Positions 16,564-29,675 of a DNA stretch of 64,000 nt are shown here, piece by piece. Positions within the stretch are counted from its first letter, which is position 1. Every line of letters starts with the position of its first letter. The position numbers were made by a program, and so were the translations under genes. Where the stretch lies: contig JAQBQD010000029.1 of the NCBI GenBank assembly GCA_028287185.1, positions 1-64,000 on the forward strand, written 5' to 3'. Origin of the DNA: Gemmatimonadota bacterium (GTDB lineage: Bacteria > Gemmatimonadota > Gemmatimonadetes > Longimicrobiales > Longimicrobiaceae). The notes under the pieces were generated by a model that worked only from the letters and a program-made list of their open reading frames with translations, made no database searches and was not told where the DNA came from.

Positions 16564-17786
16564 CTAAGCCCTGACCTCCGCGAGCGTCTGGTCGATCCGA
16601 TGGGTCAGCTCGCCGGAGACGCCGGTCGCCTCGGCGAAGCGCGGCCACTGCTCGACGGCATCGCGCACCTCGTCGATCATGCCTTGCGCCCGCCGCGGGT
16701 CGATGCCGGCATCCTTCGCCACGCGAAGCATCTCCGCCGTGCCGGGGCGGCGCGCCTCGCCGGCGACGGACATCGTGTGCTCACCGCCCGGTCCGTCGGA
16801 GAAAACCAAGTCGTAGGCGGGGGAAAGCCTCCACGTGCCGTCGGTTTCCATCAGGTACGAGACGTTCTTCACGTGGTCGTCGCGGTTGTGGACGAGCACG
16901 TTGAAGGCCATCCGCCGATACGCCTCCTCCACCTGGCGATGGTCGTGGGTGAGGAGAAGGGTCGCGCGGAGGAAGCCATCGTAGTCCACGGACGGGATGC
17001 GGTGGCTGGCGTGCAGCAGCCCGCTCAGCGTGTGCATGTGAACCCGCTGCCCGCTCCGCCGGTCGAAGCGCTCCGCGCCGAAATAACGCCCCTCCTCGGT
17101 TTCGAACAGCCGCGTGGGAGGCACCTCGATGCCCGCTTCCTCCGCCATCGACGCGTACGCCGCCTCCACCGCGCCGATCTCGGGCCCGTCCGCCGCCGTG
17201 CCGAACTTCAGTAGGAAGCTCCGGTAGCCCGCCGGCAGCTCCGCCGCGCCCGACACGATGCGCCCGCTCCCGTCGTCCACGCCGACGAGCACCTTCGGCC
17301 GTGCGCCGCCGGGAGAGCCGCCCGCCACGCGGAGCGCCGGCAGCACGGCTTCCGGGCTGCCTTCCAGGATGCGCTCGGCCTGCCGCGCCAGCGCGTCCAG
17401 GTCAAGCTCCATCCCATCGACCGTGGAAGGCGTGGTCGCGGGGTGGTAGGTGAGCGCCCCCATGCCCCGCGCGCCGATGTAGGCCAGTCGGTCGAGCGGC
17501 GACATGCGCGTGGGGTTCAGCCCCTGCTTGCGGAACTCGCGGTCCATCAGCAGGAGGCCCCATCCGTCCGGCAGCGAGTCGCCGAAGACCCCGAACACGG
17601 GCGCGAAATCCCGGTCGGGGTGCTCGATCAGCCCGGGACGCACGGGGAGCTTCCAGGGAGAGATGGGAAAGGGATCGGCCAGGAACGAGGCTCGTACTCG
17701 AACACGACGCTTCGTTCTTCCTCGGCCAGCGTGCCGACCAGCCGTGGCGGCCCGCCCCAGTCCAGCCGGACTTCAAGCCTGCGCAT
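16564..17786 (-). pseudogene. hipA: HipA-type serine/threonine kinase toxin, frameshifted near the N-terminus
   Basis: HipA toxins phosphorylate translation factors such as GltX and cause growth arrest. From ATG 17786 the frame gives a good HipA N-terminus (MRRLEVRLDWGGPPRLVGTL ... VVFEYEPR). Near 17684-17690 it needs a shift to enter the frame carrying the rest (FLADPFPISPWKLPVRPGLIE). In the first frame a stop follows at once. The remaining ~359 codons keep the kinase parts: the Gly-rich loop SPGGARPK, LLKF lysine, catalytic HNRDDHVKN and the SPAYDL metal motif. Its ATG overlaps the hipB stop by 14 nt. Either one base has been lost (real or sequencing error) or translation restarts at the GTG near 17643. 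Confidence 0.75.
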
Positions 17787-18111
17787 CGCGCCGCTTTCCG
17801 CGCCGGCGCGGCTGCAGCTCCGTGCGCGCCGCCAGCTCCGCGAGCGACCGCGCGGGGGGCAGCGCGAACAGGGCCGCGAACCCGGCCTGCGCGTTGAGGA
17901 TCACGGCCAGCTTGAGCAGCCGCTCCAGCGCGATGCTGCCCGTGCGCTCGAAGTGGCGGTAGGTGCCCAGGGTGATGCCGGCGCGCTCGGCGGTCTCCTG
18001 TTGCGTCCAGCCGCGGGCCAGGCGCAGTGCCTTCACGCGTTCGGAGATCGACTCGGCCAGCTCACCGGGGGTTAGAAGCTCAACTGGCAGCATGATCGCG
18101 TTTACCTCCAT
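17773..18111 (-). CDS. hipB: HipB-like XRE-family antitoxin/repressor
   Basis: DNA-binding antitoxin of a hipBA module; members neutralise HipA and repress the operon. The 112-aa product has a Cro/cI helix-turn-helix at about residues 22-75 (ERVKALRLARGWTQQETAERAGI, then TLGTYRHFERTGSIALERLLKLA) and a basic C-terminal tail (QPRRRGKRRD). The start could be ATG 18111 or ATG 18093. It overlaps hipA by 14 nt. A near-consensus -10 (TATAAT) lies just upstream within an AT-rich patch that probably includes the operator. Confidence 0.85.
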   Translation of the reverse strand: MEVNAIMLPVELLTPGELAESISERVKALRLARGWTQQETAERAGITLGTYRHFERTGSIALERLLKLAVILNAQAGFAALFALPPARSLAELAARTELQPRRRGKRRDAQA

Positions 18112-19835: not shown

Positions 19836-20462
19836 TCAGGAACGCGGCGAGAGCACCAGCTCGCCGTTCTGCACGGAGGCCGCGGCCACGCCCGGGGGCA
19901 GCTTGATGGGAAACTCCTGCGCGCCCAGGCCGGGCTGGTCCTTCCGCCCCAGCCGCGTCAGGAGCTGGCCCTGCCACTCGCGCGGGATGGGGAACTTGGC
20001 GAAGGTGGCGCGCGTCACCTCCAGCGCCGCCCGGCCGCGGGTGACGGTGCGGACGCGGCCACGCACGTCCACGTCCGCCGTGTCGGGCAAGAAGCCGCGC
20101 ACGCGCCGCAGCTCGGGCACGTCGGGCAGACGGTCCACCGGCAGGCGCGCGGTCAGCCGCAGCGTGTCGCCGTTCAGGCGCACCTCGGGCTGCTGGAGGG
20201 CGCCGTCCGCGAGCTGGTCCTGGACGCGGTAGCGCAGCAGGCTGGTCAGCTCCACCGCGTTCAGGTGCACGGTGTCGTGCTCGGTACGCAGGCGGGAGAT
20301 CTTGTCCTCGGCGCTCTTCGCGGCGGCCTCGGATACCTCCACCGGGTCCTCGTGCCGCGACTTCCACGGGAAGGGGATGCGGTCGCGGAAGTACCATCCG
20401 GCGGCGCCGAGCGCCACCAGCACCACCAGCAGGGACAGGCAGCCGCCGCTTCTTCGCGCCAT
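19836..20462 (-). CDS. Membrane-anchored protein of unknown function
   Basis: A 208-aa protein with an N-terminal membrane anchor (LSLLVVLVALGAAGWYF, residues about 9-25) and a soluble, probably periplasmic domain. The domain is rich in short beta-like segments (VRLNGDTLRLTARLPVDRL, ADVDVRGRVRTVTRGRAALEV). That pattern recalls lipid-binding-like or DUF2993-type domains, but I cannot assign a family. It lies 30 bp upstream of the sigma-54 regulator gene in the same orientation, so the two may be cotranscribed. Confidence 0.7.
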   Translation of the reverse strand: MARRSGGCLSLLVVLVALGAAGWYFRDRIPFPWKSRHEDPVEVSEAAAKSAEDKISRLRTEHDTVHLNAVELTSLLRYRVQDQLADGALQQPEVRLNGDTLRLTARLPVDRLPDVPELRRVRGFLPDTADVDVRGRVRTVTRGRAALEVTRATFAKFPIPREWQGQLLTRLGRKDQPGLGAQEFPIKLPPGVAAASVQNGELVLSPRS

Positions 20463-20590: not shown

Positions 20591-21823
20591 CTACGCCGTG
20601 CCCGCGCTCCCCGCCGCCTTCCGTGCCTCCGCCGACATCGACCCGACGACGGCCGCCAGTGCCGTAGCGGCGCGGTCCACGTCGGCCTCCGAGGTCGCCC
20701 AGCCGATGGAGAAGCGGAGGGCGCCGCGCTCCGCCGTGCCGAGACAGTCGTGCGCCTCGGGCGCGCAGTGCAGGCCGGCGCGGGTCAGCACGCCGTGCTC
20801 CGCGTCCAGCCTCCGCGCGACGGTCGATGAGTCCATCCCGGCATCCACCGTCACGATCCCCACGCCCTCGGGCGCCGCGGGGGAGACGACGCGCACGCCT
20901 TCGATCGCCGCCACCTTCGCGCGGAGCCGGGCCTTCAGCGCGAGCTCGGCTGCATGGATCGACCCGACCGAGCGCTCCCGGATCCATTCGAGGCCGGCGA
21001 GCAGGCCGGCGATGCCCGGCGCGTTCTGGGTGCCCGCCTCCAGCCGGTCGGGCATGGCGGACGGCATCGCCGCATCCCACGACTCGCTCCCCGTGCCGCC
21101 GAACAGCACAGGGCCCACGTCGACGCCCTCCCGCACCCACAGCCCGCCGGTGCCCTGCGGACCGAGCAGGCCCTTGTGCCCGGTGAACGCCAGCACGTCC
21201 ACGCCCATCCGCACGACGTCGATCGCCACATGACCGGCGGACTGCGCGGCATCCACCACCAGCAGGCAGCCGGCGGCGTGGGCCCGCTCCGCGATCTCCG
21301 CCAGCGGCAGGACGGTCCCGAGGACGTTGGATGCATGAGGAACGACGAGCACCTTCGCGCGGCCCAGGACGGCGTTGCCGACGACGGCGCGCTCCACCTC
21401 GCCCAGATCCAGCGTCCCGTCCACGGAGCCGGCCAGCACCGTCTCACGGACACCGCGCGCGGCCAGGGCGGCCACGGGGCGGCGGACGGAGTTGTGGTCG
21501 TACGCCGTACGCACTACGCGGTCGCCGGGGTGGAGCAGGCCGAAGAGCGCGACGTTGAGCGCGTGGGTGGCGTTGAGCTGGAAGGCGATGCGACCGGGAT
21601 CGCCGGGGATGGCAAACAGCTCCGCCAGTGCGCGCCGGCATCGGAAGGCGATGCGCCCGGCGTCCAGCGCGCGCCGGTGCCCCGCCCTGCCGGGCGTCGC
21701 GCCGACGTCGCGGAGGTAGGCCGCGATCGCGTCGATCACCTCCGGCGGGCGGATGGCGCTGGTGGCGGCGTAGTCCAGGTAGACCACGTCGTCCGCCGCT
21801 CCCGCCGCCGTCGTGGAGGTCAC
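20591..21823 (-). CDS. Class V aminotransferase, cysteine desulfurase-like
   Basis: PLP enzyme of the cysteine desulfurase / isopenicillin-epimerase group, 410 aa. It opens with VYLDYAATSAIRPPEV, has YDHNSVRRP, the cofactor aspartate in VVDAAQSAGH, the PLP lysine in FTGHKGLLGPQGTGG, and the substrate-side cysteine in GLHCAPEAHDCLGTAERG. The GLHCAP motif is typical of the TIGR01977 group, often linked to sulfur or selenium transfer. It starts at GTG 21823, overlapping the LarE-tail-like gene (GTGA), and belongs to the larE operon. A role as sulfur donor in that operon is an inference. Confidence 0.85.
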   Translation of the reverse strand: MTSTTAAGAADDVVYLDYAATSAIRPPEVIDAIAAYLRDVGATPGRAGHRRALDAGRIAFRCRRALAELFAIPGDPGRIAFQLNATHALNVALFGLLHPGDRVVRTAYDHNSVRRPVAALAARGVRETVLAGSVDGTLDLGEVERAVVGNAVLGRAKVLVVPHASNVLGTVLPLAEIAERAHAAGCLLVVDAAQSAGHVAIDVVRMGVDVLAFTGHKGLLGPQGTGGLWVREGVDVGPVLFGGTGSESWDAAMPSAMPDRLEAGTQNAPGIAGLLAGLEWIRERSVGSIHAAELALKARLRAKVAAIEGVRVVSPAAPEGVGIVTVDAGMDSSTVARRLDAEHGVLTRAGLHCAPEAHDCLGTAERGALRFSIGWATSEADVDRAATALAAVVGSMSAEARKAAGSAGTA

Positions 21824-22053
21824 CCGTCGCTGGGGACGAGATCCAGCGCGACGTAGCGGAAGCCGAGCGCCTTCAGCTCGCGGGCGAGCGGCAGGCCCTC
21901 CGCGCCGGCCACGCCGTCCCACGCGTCCGCAGGCACGCGCAGCGCGGCGATCTCGCCCTCGTGGCCGGAGACGGTGACGGTGGCGCCGTCAAATCCGCGC
22001 CGTGCGAGCAGGTCCGTGGCGCGGATGGCGCGCGGGTCGGCGGGGGCGCTCAC
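21820..22053 (-). CDS. Stand-alone homologue of the LarE C-terminal domain
   Basis: A 77-codon gene starting at GTG 22053 and overlapping both neighbours by four bases. Its sequence (TVTVSGHEGEIAALRVP ... LARELKALGFRYVALDL) aligns with the C-terminal ~60 residues of the LarE encoded next to it (FRVRHHGEVARLEVHP ... VLDAGFSSVLLDLEG). The order is the same: a strand, H-x-G-E-x-A-x-L-x-V, helix, then GF-x-x-V-x-L-D-L. It lacks the PP-loop domain entirely. I see no catalytic residues. It may be a partner or scaffold for LarE or the desulfurase. Confidence 0.7.
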   Translation of the reverse strand: MSAPADPRAIRATDLLARRGFDGATVTVSGHEGEIAALRVPADAWDGVAGAEGLPLARELKALGFRYVALDLVPSDG

Positions 22054-22889
22054 GCGGCGCCTCCGAGCTGCACGAGCTGGACGGCGGCCAGGCCCTCGTT
22101 CAGCGCGCCGCGGCGGTATCCTTCCAGGTCGAGGAGGACGCTGGAGAAGCCCGCATCGAGCACGGCGGCGGCGATCTGGGCCCGGTGCGCGGCAATGCGG
22201 GAAAGCTCGACGGGATGCACCTCCAGACGCGCCACCTCGCCGTGGTGGCGGACGCGGAAGTCGCGGAAGCCGAGCGCGCGCAGGGCAAGCTCGGCACGCT
22301 CCACCTGCCGCAGGCGGCCGGGCGTGACCGCGAGCCCGTACGGCAGGCGCGACGCCAGGCAGGGCGCGGCGGGCTGGTCCCAGGTGGGCAGCCCCAGCTC
22401 GCGCGACCAGGCGCGGATGTCGCCCTTGGTGAGCCCGGCCTCCAGCAGCGGCGAGCGTACGGCGTGCTCGGCGGCGGCCACCGCGCCGGGGCGATGGTCG
22501 CCCACGTCGTCCGCGTTGGAGCCGTCCAGGACGGTGCGGAAGCCCCGCTCCGCCGCGACGCCCGCCAGGCGGCCCCACAGCTCGTCCTTGCAGAAGTAGC
22601 AGCGGTTGCTGGGGTTGGCGGCGTAGCGCGGATCGTCCATCTCGCGCGTCTCCACCTCCAGCCAGGGGATACCGAACGAGGCGGCCACCTCGCGCGCGGT
22701 GTCCTCCATCCACGACGCGATGCTGTCGCTCTTGCCGGTGACGGCGAGCACGTTCGCGGCACCGAGGGTGTCCACGGCCACCTTGGCGAGGAAGACGGAA
22801 TCCACGCCGCCGCTGTAGCCGACCACCACCGAGCCGCACTCGCGGAGGATCTGGGCCAGCCGCGCCCGCTTCTGCTGCACCTTGCGCAA
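22050..22889 (-). CDS. larE: LarE-type ATP-dependent sulfur transferase
   Basis: PP-loop ATPase of the LarE family, which adenylates a carboxylated pyridinium substrate and donates sulfur to it when making the nickel-pincer cofactor. The 279-aa product has the PP-loop SGGVDS (about residues 25-30), NRCYFCKDELW, DGSNADD and PCLASRLPYG. The cysteine in PCLASR is at the position expected for the sacrificial sulfur donor. No larB, larC or larA is in the window, so the real product may be different. It is coupled to the two downstream genes by four-base overlaps. Confidence 0.9.
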   Translation of the reverse strand: MRKVQQKRARLAQILRECGSVVVGYSGGVDSVFLAKVAVDTLGAANVLAVTGKSDSIASWMEDTAREVAASFGIPWLEVETREMDDPRYAANPSNRCYFCKDELWGRLAGVAAERGFRTVLDGSNADDVGDHRPGAVAAAEHAVRSPLLEAGLTKGDIRAWSRELGLPTWDQPAAPCLASRLPYGLAVTPGRLRQVERAELALRALGFRDFRVRHHGEVARLEVHPVELSRIAAHRAQIAAAVLDAGFSSVLLDLEGYRRGALNEGLAAVQLVQLGGAA

Positions 22890-22911: not shown

Positions 22912-22938
22912 ACGGGGGGCCCAAGATAGGCCCCCCGT
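22912..22938 (-). terminator. Terminator between lspA and larE
   Basis: A perfect 10-bp stem (ACGGGGGGCC / GGCCCCCCGT) with a 7-nt loop, 40 nt past the lspA stop. Confidence 0.6.
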
Positions 22939-22977: not shown

Positions 22978-23604
22978 TCAGGCCAGCGTCGCGGGCTCCA
23001 CTGCGCCGCCCGCCTCGGGCGAGACGGACGGCTCGTCGCCCGGCCGCCGGCGCATGCGGCCCGCCACCTCGAACAGGATCACCGGGATGCTGAGCGGGAT
23101 GGAGAGGAAGAGCGCCACGTCGGCCAGGTTGCCCGGGGGAAGCCACACGTCGTGCCAGCGCAGCGACAGGAAGTCGGTGACGCCCCAGTGCACCAGGCGC
23201 TCGCCCAGGTTGCCCACCATCCCCCCCAGCGCCAGCCCCACGTAGAGCCACGCCAGCGGCCGCTCGCGCTGCGTGAAGCGGTGGCCGCGGCCCAGGATCT
23301 GGAGCAGGAAGAGGAGCCCCACCGCGGCGCCGCAGACGGCGATCACCTGCCGGGCGCCCAGGGGAAAGCTGCTCCACAGCCCCAGCATCATCGCGTGGTT
23401 CTGCACGTGGAAGAAGGCCAGGCGCCCCGGCACCACCTCCACGAAGTCGTCCAGAGGCACCCGCGACGAGACCGCCCATTTGGCCGACCAGTCCGCCGCC
23501 GCGATCGCCGCGGCGATCCACGCCGCGGGCACCCAGCCCCGCCTCGGCTCGTGGTCCGTGGCGCGGCGCCCGCCGCCGCGGTGGACGGACCGGCGCTCGC
23601 CCAT
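22978..23604 (-). CDS. lspA: Divergent lipoprotein signal peptidase (LspA family)
   Basis: Aspartic protease that cleaves prolipoprotein signal peptides. The 208-aa product has four hydrophobic segments and the family order of motifs: DWSAKW in the first helix, GGMVGNLGERL, GVTDF, and NLADVALF. The two catalytic aspartates (in TDF and NLAD) are present and 18 residues apart as in E. coli. NLxDR has become NLGER, and the NxGxxFG motif reads NHAMMLGL. The C-terminal ~30 residues are a cytoplasmic tail. Probably functional but atypical; a second, canonical LspA elsewhere in the genome is possible. Confidence 0.8.
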   Translation of the reverse strand: MGERRSVHRGGGRRATDHEPRRGWVPAAWIAAAIAAADWSAKWAVSSRVPLDDFVEVVPGRLAFFHVQNHAMMLGLWSSFPLGARQVIAVCGAAVGLLFLLQILGRGHRFTQRERPLAWLYVGLALGGMVGNLGERLVHWGVTDFLSLRWHDVWLPPGNLADVALFLSIPLSIPVILFEVAGRMRRRPGDEPSVSPEAGGAVEPATLA

Positions 23605-27419: not shown

Positions 27420-28499
27420 TCAGGCGGCGATGCGCCCGCCGCCGAGGACGATGTCGCCGTCGAACAACACGGCGGACTGGCCGGGCGTCACGGCGCTCTG
27501 CGGCACGTCGAGGTCCAGGTGGATGAACCCATCCTCCGCCGCCGACACGCGGGCGGGGACGGCGGGGGCGCGGTGGCGGATCTGCACCTGCACCGGCGCG
27601 CCGGCGGACGGCGGCGTCGCCAGCCAGTTCAGCTCCGCGATGCGCACGTCGCAGCGGGCGAGCTGCTCCTTCGTCCCCACCACCACCTCGCGCGTGGAGG
27701 GACGCGATCCCAGCACGTACAGGCGCTGCCCGTGCCCGCCGCCCAGGCCCTTGCGCTGGCCGATGGTGTAGCGCGCGAAGCCGTCGTGCTCGCCCACCAC
27801 CTCGCCGTCCGCCGTCACCAGCGCGCCGGGGGCGAGGGAGGGATGCCCGGCGCCCAGGCGCTGCTCCAGCACGTCCACGTAGTTGCCGCTGGGCACGAAG
27901 CAGATCTCCATGCTCTCCGGCTTCTCCGCCGTCACCAGCCCGAGCCTGCGTGCGATGCCGCGCACCTCGGGCTTCGTCATCTCTCCGAGGGGAAAGACGA
28001 GCTGCGGCAGCATCTCGGGCGGCAGCGCCCACAGGAAGTACGACTGGTCCTTCTTCGCGTCCACTGCTCGCAGGAGCACGGGATTCCCCGCCGCGTCCAC
28101 GCCCATGCGCGCGTAGTGGCCGGTGGCGATGGCGTCGCACCCCAGCATGCGGCCGCGGCGCAGCAGGTCGCGGAACTTGGTGTTTCCGTTGCAGCGCACG
28201 CACGGGTTGGGGGTGCGCCCCGCCGCATACTCCTGCACGAAGTCGTCGATCACGTCGCGCGTGAACTCGCGCTCCACGTCGAAGACGTAGTGGTCGATGC
28301 CAAGCACGTCGGCCACGCGCTTCGCGTCCAGGATGCCGTCCAGGCCGCAGCAGGTCTTGCCGTGGCTGCCGGTGTCCTGGTAGCAGAAGGTCTTCATGGT
28401 CACGCCCACCACGCGGTGGCCCTGCTCCACCAGTAGCGCCGCCGCCACCGACGAGTCGACCCCGCCGGACATGGCGACCAGCACGCTCCGCTTCTCCAT
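27420..28499 (-). CDS. mnmA: tRNA-specific 2-thiouridylase MnmA
   Basis: Installs 2-thiouridine at the wobble position of Lys, Glu and Gln tRNAs. The 359-aa product has the PP-loop SGGVDSS (residues 11-17), the first catalytic cysteine in NPCVRCN (about 101), tRNA-contact ATGHYAR, and the second cysteine in SMEICFVP (about 199), with a C-terminal beta-barrel. The gene is 27 nt downstream of a cysteine desulfurase, giving a local sulfur relay. Confidence 0.97.
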   Translation of the reverse strand: MEKRSVLVAMSGGVDSSVAAALLVEQGHRVVGVTMKTFCYQDTGSHGKTCCGLDGILDAKRVADVLGIDHYVFDVEREFTRDVIDDFVQEYAAGRTPNPCVRCNGNTKFRDLLRRGRMLGCDAIATGHYARMGVDAAGNPVLLRAVDAKKDQSYFLWALPPEMLPQLVFPLGEMTKPEVRGIARRLGLVTAEKPESMEICFVPSGNYVDVLEQRLGAGHPSLAPGALVTADGEVVGEHDGFARYTIGQRKGLGGGHGQRLYVLGSRPSTREVVVGTKEQLARCDVRIAELNWLATPPSAGAPVQVQIRHRAPAVPARVSAAEDGFIHLDLDVPQSAVTPGQSAVLFDGDIVLGGGRIAA

Positions 28500-28526: not shown

Positions 28527-29675
28527 CTACGCCGCGGCCATCTCGCGCAGCTGCCCCACCAGCGCCGGGAAAGCTTCCAGCACCCGCTCCACCTCTTCCG
28601 CCGTGGTCGTCCGGCCCAGCGAGAAGCGCACGGCCGGCCCCGACCCGGGTGAGACGCCCATCGCCGTCAGCACGTGCGACACCCCCAGCGCGCCGCTGGA
28701 GCAGGCGGAGCCGGCGGAGACGCCGATCCCCTCCACGTCCAGCGCCGCCAGCAGCAGGCCGCCCTCCACGCCGGGCACGGACACGCTGCACACGTGCGGC
28801 AGCCGCGGCGCGCCGGCGGCGTTCACCGCCAGCTCCGGCACCCGCGCGCGCAGCCCCGCCTCCAGCCGGTCGCGCAGGCCGCCGAGACGCGCCGCCTCCC
28901 AATCCCGCTCCGCCTCCGCCATCTCGGCCGCCAGCGCGAAGGCCACGGCGCCGGCCACGTCCTCGGTGCCCGCGCGCAGCCCGCGCTCCTGCCCGCCGCC
29001 GTGGATCAGCGGCGCCAGCCACGTTCGGTGCCGCACGTACAGCGCGCCCACCCCGCGCGGGCCGCCGAACTTGTGCCCGCTGAACGACAGCAGGTCCACG
29101 GGCGTCCGGTCCACCCGCACCTCCAGCTTGCCGAACGCCTGCACCGCGTCGGAGTGGAACGCCACGCCCGCCTGGCGGCACAGCGCGCCGACCTGCTCCA
29201 CGGGCTGCACCGCGCCCACCTCGTTGTTGGCCCACATCACCGAGATGATCGCGGGCCTCTCCGTGAGCGCGGCCGAAACAGCGTCGAGCCGGACGATTCC
29301 CTCCCCATCGACCGGCAGCACGTGGAGCGCATGGCCCTCCCCCGCCAGCGCATGCGCCGTGGTCAGCACCGCCTTGTGCTCCACGGCCGAGCAGGCGACG
29401 GCGCAGCCGGGGACGAGGCGCGCGGCGCCCAGCAGCGCCAGGTTGTCCGCCTCCGTGCCGCCGCGGGTGAACACCACCTCCGCCGGCTCCGCGCCGATGG
29501 CGGCGGCGAAGCGCTCGCGGGCACGCTCCAGCGCCGCGCGGCCTGCGCGGCCCCAGCGGTGCACGCTGGACGGGTTGCCGAAGCACTCCGACATCACGCG
29601 CAGCATGGCCTCGCCGGCCTCCGCGCGGAGCGGCGTGGATGCGGCGTGGTCCAGGTAGATGGGCTGGCGGCTCAT
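28527..29675 (-). CDS. iscS: Cysteine desulfurase (IscS/NifS group)
   Basis: PLP enzyme that takes sulfur from cysteine as a persulfide. The 382-aa product starts IYLDHAASTPLR and has the ATP-independent class I features: GGTEADNLAL, AVEHKAVL, the PLP lysine in FSGHKFGGPRG (about 203), and the flexible active-site loop GSACSSGALGVSHVL (cysteine near 325). ATG 29675 matches the family start. Placed directly before mnmA, it is the likely sulfur source for tRNA thiolation; it may also serve Fe-S assembly, although no iscU is near. Confidence 0.93.
   Translation of the reverse strand: MSRQPIYLDHAASTPLRAEAGEAMLRVMSECFGNPSSVHRWGRAGRAALERARERFAAAIGAEPAEVVFTRGGTEADNLALLGAARLVPGCAVACSAVEHKAVLTTAHALAGEGHALHVLPVDGEGIVRLDAVSAALTERPAIISVMWANNEVGAVQPVEQVGALCRQAGVAFHSDAVQAFGKLEVRVDRTPVDLLSFSGHKFGGPRGVGALYVRHRTWLAPLIHGGGQERGLRAGTEDVAGAVAFALAAEMAEAERDWEAARLGGLRDRLEAGLRARVPELAVNAAGAPRLPHVCSVSVPGVEGGLLLAALDVEGIGVSAGSACSSGALGVSHVLTAMGVSPGSGPAVRFSLGRTTTAEEVERVLEAFPALVGQLREMAAA

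Follow-up and report, generated by a model that had tools for sequence, protein, structure and literature searches.

In Longimicrobium-group soil bacteria, LarE, an enzyme of nickel-pincer nucleotide (NPN) biosynthesis, is accompanied by what appears to be a second copy of its own C-terminal domain, and this extra tail is probably a functional component of the enzyme, because the pair is kept together, lost together, and sometimes fused together. What is new is the combination: a second LarE tail supplied in trans or by fusion, on a LarE of the putative [4Fe-4S] type, in a pathway with no detectable LarA. In the open-access literature we came across no account of a LarE tail encoded as a protein of its own. 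What we show directly is how the genes are arranged, what they are homologous to, and which of them co-occur or are fused, along with the predicted fold, the pattern of cysteines and arginines, the presence of LarB and LarC, and the lack of matches to LarA.

The model that we favor, with somewhat better than even confidence as a whole, combines a [4Fe-4S] LarE, an accessory tail subunit, a desulfurase as likely shared donor, and delivery of NPN to a protein other than LarA. The locus would carry out the sulfur-insertion step of NPN biosynthesis: LarE would adenylylate the P2CMN made by LarB and transfer a non-core sulfide carried by its cluster, and LarC, encoded elsewhere in the genome, would insert nickel afterwards. 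The downstream desulfurase would most likely supply sulfane sulfur from cysteine while also serving other clients, so that the sulfur may come from this neighbor or from another desulfurase.

Organization of the larE locus

The window, by which we mean the whole 64,000-nucleotide stretch of DNA analyzed, has its nearest named genomes in Longimicrobium and other Gemmatimonadota. On its minus strand, larE is followed by a 77-codon gene and then by a cysteine desulfurase gene, and the coordinates of both junctions bear out the 4-base overlaps described in an earlier note on this DNA:

22978..23604, minus strand: lspA (signal peptidase II), the upstream neighbor of larE kept in the family (PF01252, 65.4 bits; tblastn synteny)
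22050..22889, minus strand: larE, putative [4Fe-4S]-type sulfur insertase of NPN synthesis (TIGR00268, 319.7 bits)
21820..22053, minus strand: small gene of 77 codons, predicted to encode a second LarE C-terminal domain as a separate protein (hhalign, AlphaFold, Foldseek, conservation)
20591..21823, minus strand: cysteine desulfurase of the class V aminotransferase fold, TIGR01977-like (PF00266, 244.5 bits; TIGR01977, 359.5 bits)
19836..20462, minus strand: 208-aa protein whose N-terminal segment is hydrophobic, the downstream neighbor kept across the class (context only)

Translation of larE probably starts at the GTG at 22880 rather than at the TTG at 22889, because a GGAGG lies 10 nt upstream of the former and 1 nt upstream of the latter.

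A probable LarE of the [4Fe-4S] type

We assigned proteins to LarE on a full-length match above the curated cutoff together with a PP-loop of the form SGGxDS; the window LarE exceeds the TIGR00268 cutoff of 150 bits more than twofold and carries SGGVDS. Its cysteines follow a CXXC-C pattern (C97-x2-C100 plus C177) that is invariant in 29 of 29 relatives, as are Ser180, Arg212, and Arg214. In the alignment, the position of the sacrificial Cys176 of Lactiplantibacillus plantarum LarE is occupied by Pro and the window cysteine stands one residue later, the same shift that has been reported for Thermotoga maritima LarE (PMC9283937). We took a CXXC with a third cysteine one residue past the Cys176 position as the sign of a [4Fe-4S]-type LarE, and a single Cys176 with no CXXC as that of the sacrificial L. 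plantarum type; the window LarE has the first pattern and lacks the second.

The Thermotoga enzyme carries a [4Fe-4S] cluster, retains its cysteines, and turns over catalytically when IscS and cysteine supply the sulfur (PMC9283937). As the CXXC-C pattern is shared with this non-sacrificial LarE, the window LarE is probably not sacrificial, and we infer that it is of the [4Fe-4S] type and binds a cluster. A sacrificial LarE that loses a sulfur at each turnover, as the earlier note had it, is a candidate that we discarded on the cysteine pattern, given the CXXC-C cysteines and the Pro at the Cys176 position. The window LarE and Thermotoga LarE also share the PP-loop, the residues Ser180, Arg212, and Arg214 for P2CMN, and a cysteine desulfurase as sulfur source, a probable one in the window (PMC9283937), whereas in Thermotoga no second tail has been reported and the desulfurase genes lie far from larE. 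L. plantarum LarE (PDB 5UDQ and others; TIGR00268) belongs to the same overall family (E about 1e-46) but differs from the window LarE in its single sacrificial Cys176, its lack of a CXXC, the absence of a separate tail, and a tri-Asp metal site (Asp231, Arg228) that the window LarE does not retain.

The small protein as a duplicated LarE tail

Profile comparison and predicted fold both identify the small protein as a duplicate of the C-terminal domain of LarE. As a single sequence it matches the LarE tail weakly (BLASTP E 0.03; HMM E 0.2). A profile of 25 of its relatives, compared with the LarE profile by hhalign, aligns with LarE residues 195-262 at 95.8% probability (E 7e-9), and eleven control profiles (one reversed and ten column-shuffled) reach at most 2.2% probability. 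The likeness to the LarE C-terminal domain that the earlier note had read from the 77-codon product thus stands well above the controls in the profile comparison set beforehand, and its remark that the product has no PP-loop holds for all 77 aa. An AlphaFold2 model of the small protein alone, from nine sequences, reached a pLDDT of 91.8 (the alignment used, A2, consists of DNA references only; in alignment A1 one row carries three N-terminal residues that are absent from the genome). Foldseek with this model returned 51 PDB matches at E <= 0.001, and all 50 that were listed are LarE of L. plantarum, whose C-terminal domain has the same fold and superposes over 64 columns with an rmsd of about 1.1 A (TM 0.73, normalized by query length).

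The origin of the small protein would accordingly lie in a duplication of this part of LarE. As a LarE enzyme in its own right it can be set aside, with PP-loop, cysteines, and substrate arginines all lacking. Neither a cysteine nor a C-terminal Gly-Gly is conserved across its family, and counterparts of LarE Arg212 and Arg214 are missing from the small protein. Between close relatives the dN/dS of the small gene is about 0.2-0.4, indicating purifying selection; it reaches 0.7-0.9 in wider comparisons, and constraint therefore looks looser than on LarE.

One position differs between the two tails. The tyrosine of a GF(R)YV motif is common in LarE elsewhere, lost from LarE of the Gemmatimonadota clade (L001-L030, L196-L227), and kept in the tail protein: the position is Tyr, Phe, or His in 25/25 tail proteins, the aromatic residue occurs in 0/36 LarE tails of the same genomes, and it occurs in 66/66 LarE outside the clade, 58 of these containing the same motif that had been used to select most of them. 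The sister clade that has no second tail has also lost this tyrosine from LarE (30/30). A division of labor between the two tails, considered on this pattern, was dropped: the comparison does not discriminate, because the sister clade lacks the Tyr as well and 58/66 of the outside set contain the selecting motif.

Distribution, fusions, and history

We sampled 61 genomes, comprising the window's own genome and relatives from its family and order, of which 30 carry LarE and 31 do not. A second tail lies beside LarE or is fused to it in all 30 LarE-bearing genomes of the order: as a separate gene directly behind larE in 27, and as an extension of the LarE C-terminus in three (L019, L025, L028). 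The two genes overlap by 4 bases in 24/27 separate cases, taking the tail-gene start nearest the larE stop. One of the 27 (L016, a single draft genome with 6% contamination) has a tail gene that continues into the desulfurase with no stop codon in between. Among the 31 LarE-less relatives there was no convincing tail copy, the nearest being one weak partial match (E 7e-4). The co-occurrence search in relatives thus finds the small reading frame conserved, and the free-standing tail homolog coupled to larE that the earlier note had proposed is real, with adjacent genes in 27 genomes and fusions in others.

Wider in the phylum, separate tails occur in families f9 and f7 (L196, L199), and three further LarE-tail fusions occur in f9 (L197, L198, L227, each a one-contig genome), bringing the fusions to six genomes across two families. 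In the LarE tree, all second-tail cases fall in one Gemmatimonadota clade (support 100/97), within which a nested clade of families f4 and f5 (29 tree rows, support 99/98) has no second tail. LarE of f4 and f5 still co-occurs with LarC; the tail protein is therefore dispensable for LarE function generally. The simplest reading of these sequences is one gain and one loss of the second tail, with several fusions or splits, the tree leaving the order of its basal branches open. Outside the phylum, a scan of named genomes with one short motif, which was not exhaustive, yielded only tails of ordinary LarE.

The LarE-less relative G007 (L183) is informative about the unit. It retains the flanks but has neither larE nor the tail gene between them: the desulfurase comes directly after lspA and is followed by the 208-aa protein and the sigma-54 regulator, which is the window order minus these two genes. 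Together with the distribution of the desulfurase given below, this absence indicates that larE and the tail gene form a single unit and that the neighboring desulfurase can be separated from it.

Possible roles of the second tail

A catalytic or sulfur-carrying role for the small protein is unlikely, since neither a Cys nor a Gly-Gly end is conserved in it and counterparts of Arg212 and Arg214 are missing; a role as a subunit appears likelier than one as a sulfur carrier, because the family offers no conserved cysteine and the LarE substrate arginines are missing. We accordingly dropped the sulfur carrier as a candidate, and the sulfur reloading by a tail protein that the earlier note had entertained fails on the same lack of a conserved cysteine. 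The small protein would instead be an accessory subunit of LarE, neither catalyst nor sulfur carrier, that most likely packs on the LarE tail and thereby shapes the assembly or the docking surface for the sulfur donor. That the two associate physically, and that this affects LarE, we infer in part from the known assembly: L. plantarum LarE is a hexamer of two trimers, and the residues at its three-fold axis (Asp231, Arg228, Gly207) all belong to the C-terminal domain (PMC7118094). The interface argument is an indirect one, because the quaternary structure of Thermotoga LarE may differ from that of the L. plantarum enzyme (PMC9283937). More tentatively, these bacteria may represent a clade with an obligatorily two-component LarE, in which the tail subunit remakes the oligomer and the donor docking site and the NPN serves a non-LarA enzyme. 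A natural in-trans copy of the LarE C-terminal domain, with fused and split forms among relatives, offers a ready test of that domain's function.

Two other roles can be considered for the small protein, and we regard both as unlikely. As a docking adaptor between desulfurase and LarE, the tail protein would direct persulfide sulfur to the cluster. The position of its gene between those of the two putative partners fits such a function, as do the fusions, six to LarE and one to the desulfurase. Dedicated desulfurase-acceptor adaptors exist in other systems and lend this role a precedent. However, the tail protein is retained in many genomes of families f2, f7, and f9 that lack a desulfurase of the neighboring type, and the single desulfurase fusion comes from the contaminated draft. 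Alternatively, the small protein could be a free regulator that competes with LarE assembly or caps it, for instance, and so not a constant subunit; its predicted ability to fold alone and its lack of substrate arginines are compatible with this improbable role, but the repeated fusion to LarE in two families and the prevalent 4-base overlap suggest coupled production and hence a constant subunit.

Far less probable than either is the reloading scheme put forward in the earlier note, by which a sacrificial LarE that has lost its cysteine sulfur would be restored by the desulfurase and the tail protein. The desulfurase does adjoin larE in 21/30 genomes; yet LarE is of the CXXC-C type with Pro at the sacrificial position, the tail protein has neither a conserved cysteine nor a C-terminal Gly-Gly, and many genomes with LarE and tail have no such desulfurase.

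The neighboring desulfurase

The best model for the desulfurase is TIGR01977, although its score falls slightly short of the cutoff of 377 bits; it matches PF00266, and its PLP lysine motif GHKG and catalytic-Cys motif RAGLHCAP align with those of solved desulfurases. It stands behind the tail gene in 17/18 LarE-bearing family members and in 4/12 members of family f2. Most f2 genomes with no desulfurase beside larE have no ortholog at all, and in the four that have a close ortholog it directly follows the tail gene or, where the tail is fused, the LarE-tail gene in every case. Orthologs with 54-62% identity also occur in five LarE-less genomes (G007, G008, G011, G022, G024). Because the desulfurase is kept in LarE-less relatives and missing from many LarE genomes, it is not a dedicated donor, and we consider it a likely but shared source of sulfur for LarE. 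The same distribution speaks against the single coupled system, desulfurase included, of the earlier note, whose proposal of the desulfurase as sulfur source remains plausible.

A possibility of some weight, which we rate short of even, is that the desulfurase is an unrelated neighbor in a block of LspA, desulfurase, 208-aa protein, and sigma-54 regulator, beside which larE and the tail gene came to lie by chance. The five LarE-less genomes speak for it, with the same flanks wherever these were read in the family, as does the proposal that TIGR01977 is a selenocysteine lyase of selenium metabolism (PMC2276186). Against chance placement stand the four f2 genomes, with their close orthologs immediately behind the tail, and the demonstration that a cysteine desulfurase is donor to a [4Fe-4S]-type LarE (PMC9283937). 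A selenium role is weakened, and we rejected it, because no selD above cutoff was found in the window's own genome or in the sampled family members. The window desulfurase thus resembles the TIGR01977 desulfurase/selenocysteine-lyase family (EF2568; PMC2276186) as its best curated model, but differs from it in its sub-cutoff score, in lying beside larE rather than selenium genes, and in a genome with no selD above cutoff. Our preferred reading remains that of a likely shared donor.

The nickel-pincer pathway and its product

The earlier note had remarked that larB, larC, and larA are lacking from the window, and its suggested look elsewhere finds larB and larC at other loci of the same genome: LarB at G000:C5:27355-27981 (289 bits) and LarC at G000:C136:11296-11790 (188 bits), the joint presence that we took as the sign of the NPN pathway. 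LarA (PF09861), our sign of lactate racemase, has no match in this genome, which is 93.8% complete, and scores above cutoff in only 6/37 genomes. LarE genomes nearly always hold both LarB and LarC, and the exceptions (LarB in G012 and G029, LarC in G017 and G043) are all drafts; in other families LarC accompanies LarE in 17/18 genomes. Conversely, none of LarB, LarC, and LarE occurs in G007, G008, G011, or any of the four sampled genomes of f3.

Because this genome also encodes LarB and LarC, which co-vary with LarE, ordinary NPN is the simplest product, which tells against the different sulfur-bearing cofactor that the earlier note had considered; the product is probably the ordinary nickel-pincer cofactor for a non-LarA enzyme, since with no detectable LarA the NPN would go to another protein. 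Among the neighbors of larB and larC (dusB, a GGDEF protein, recO, purH, a TPR protein, a zinc-ribbon protein, and der) there was no candidate for such a client. In the literature, genomes that have LarB, LarC, and LarE but likewise lack LarA, many of them cyanobacteria, amount to about 15% of all those surveyed, and they are expected to contain an NPN protein other than LarA (PMC11796402); we have not seen the tail-domain duplication or the larE/desulfurase neighborhood described in that survey. Most LarE-bearing relatives sampled here would make NPN without LarA, which places them in the class thought likely to harbor a new NPN enzyme (PMC11796402).

A single open frame of some 500 codons encodes both LarE and LarB in Bipolaricaulota, and larC begins immediately after it (L108:3302-4852, L113:3362-4858, L130:3350-4855, L140:8-1537, L144:3377-4882), a fusion that further supports placing both in one pathway.

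Other features of the window

The 208-aa protein matches no Pfam family and is kept downstream of larE or of the desulfurase across the class, including in LarE-less genomes. Between lspA and larE lies a perfect 10-bp inverted repeat (window 22912-22938: ACGGGGGGCC, 7-nt loop, GGCCCCCCGT) with no T-run and no Rfam match; no Rfam RNA was found in the window as a whole. Elsewhere in the window, mnmA and a second class V desulfurase gene lie side by side (27420-28499 and 28581-29660, minus strand) as a probable tRNA thiolation pair, and a HipA-like kinase gene with a helix-turn-helix partner (16564-18111, minus strand) forms a probable HipBA-type toxin-antitoxin pair.
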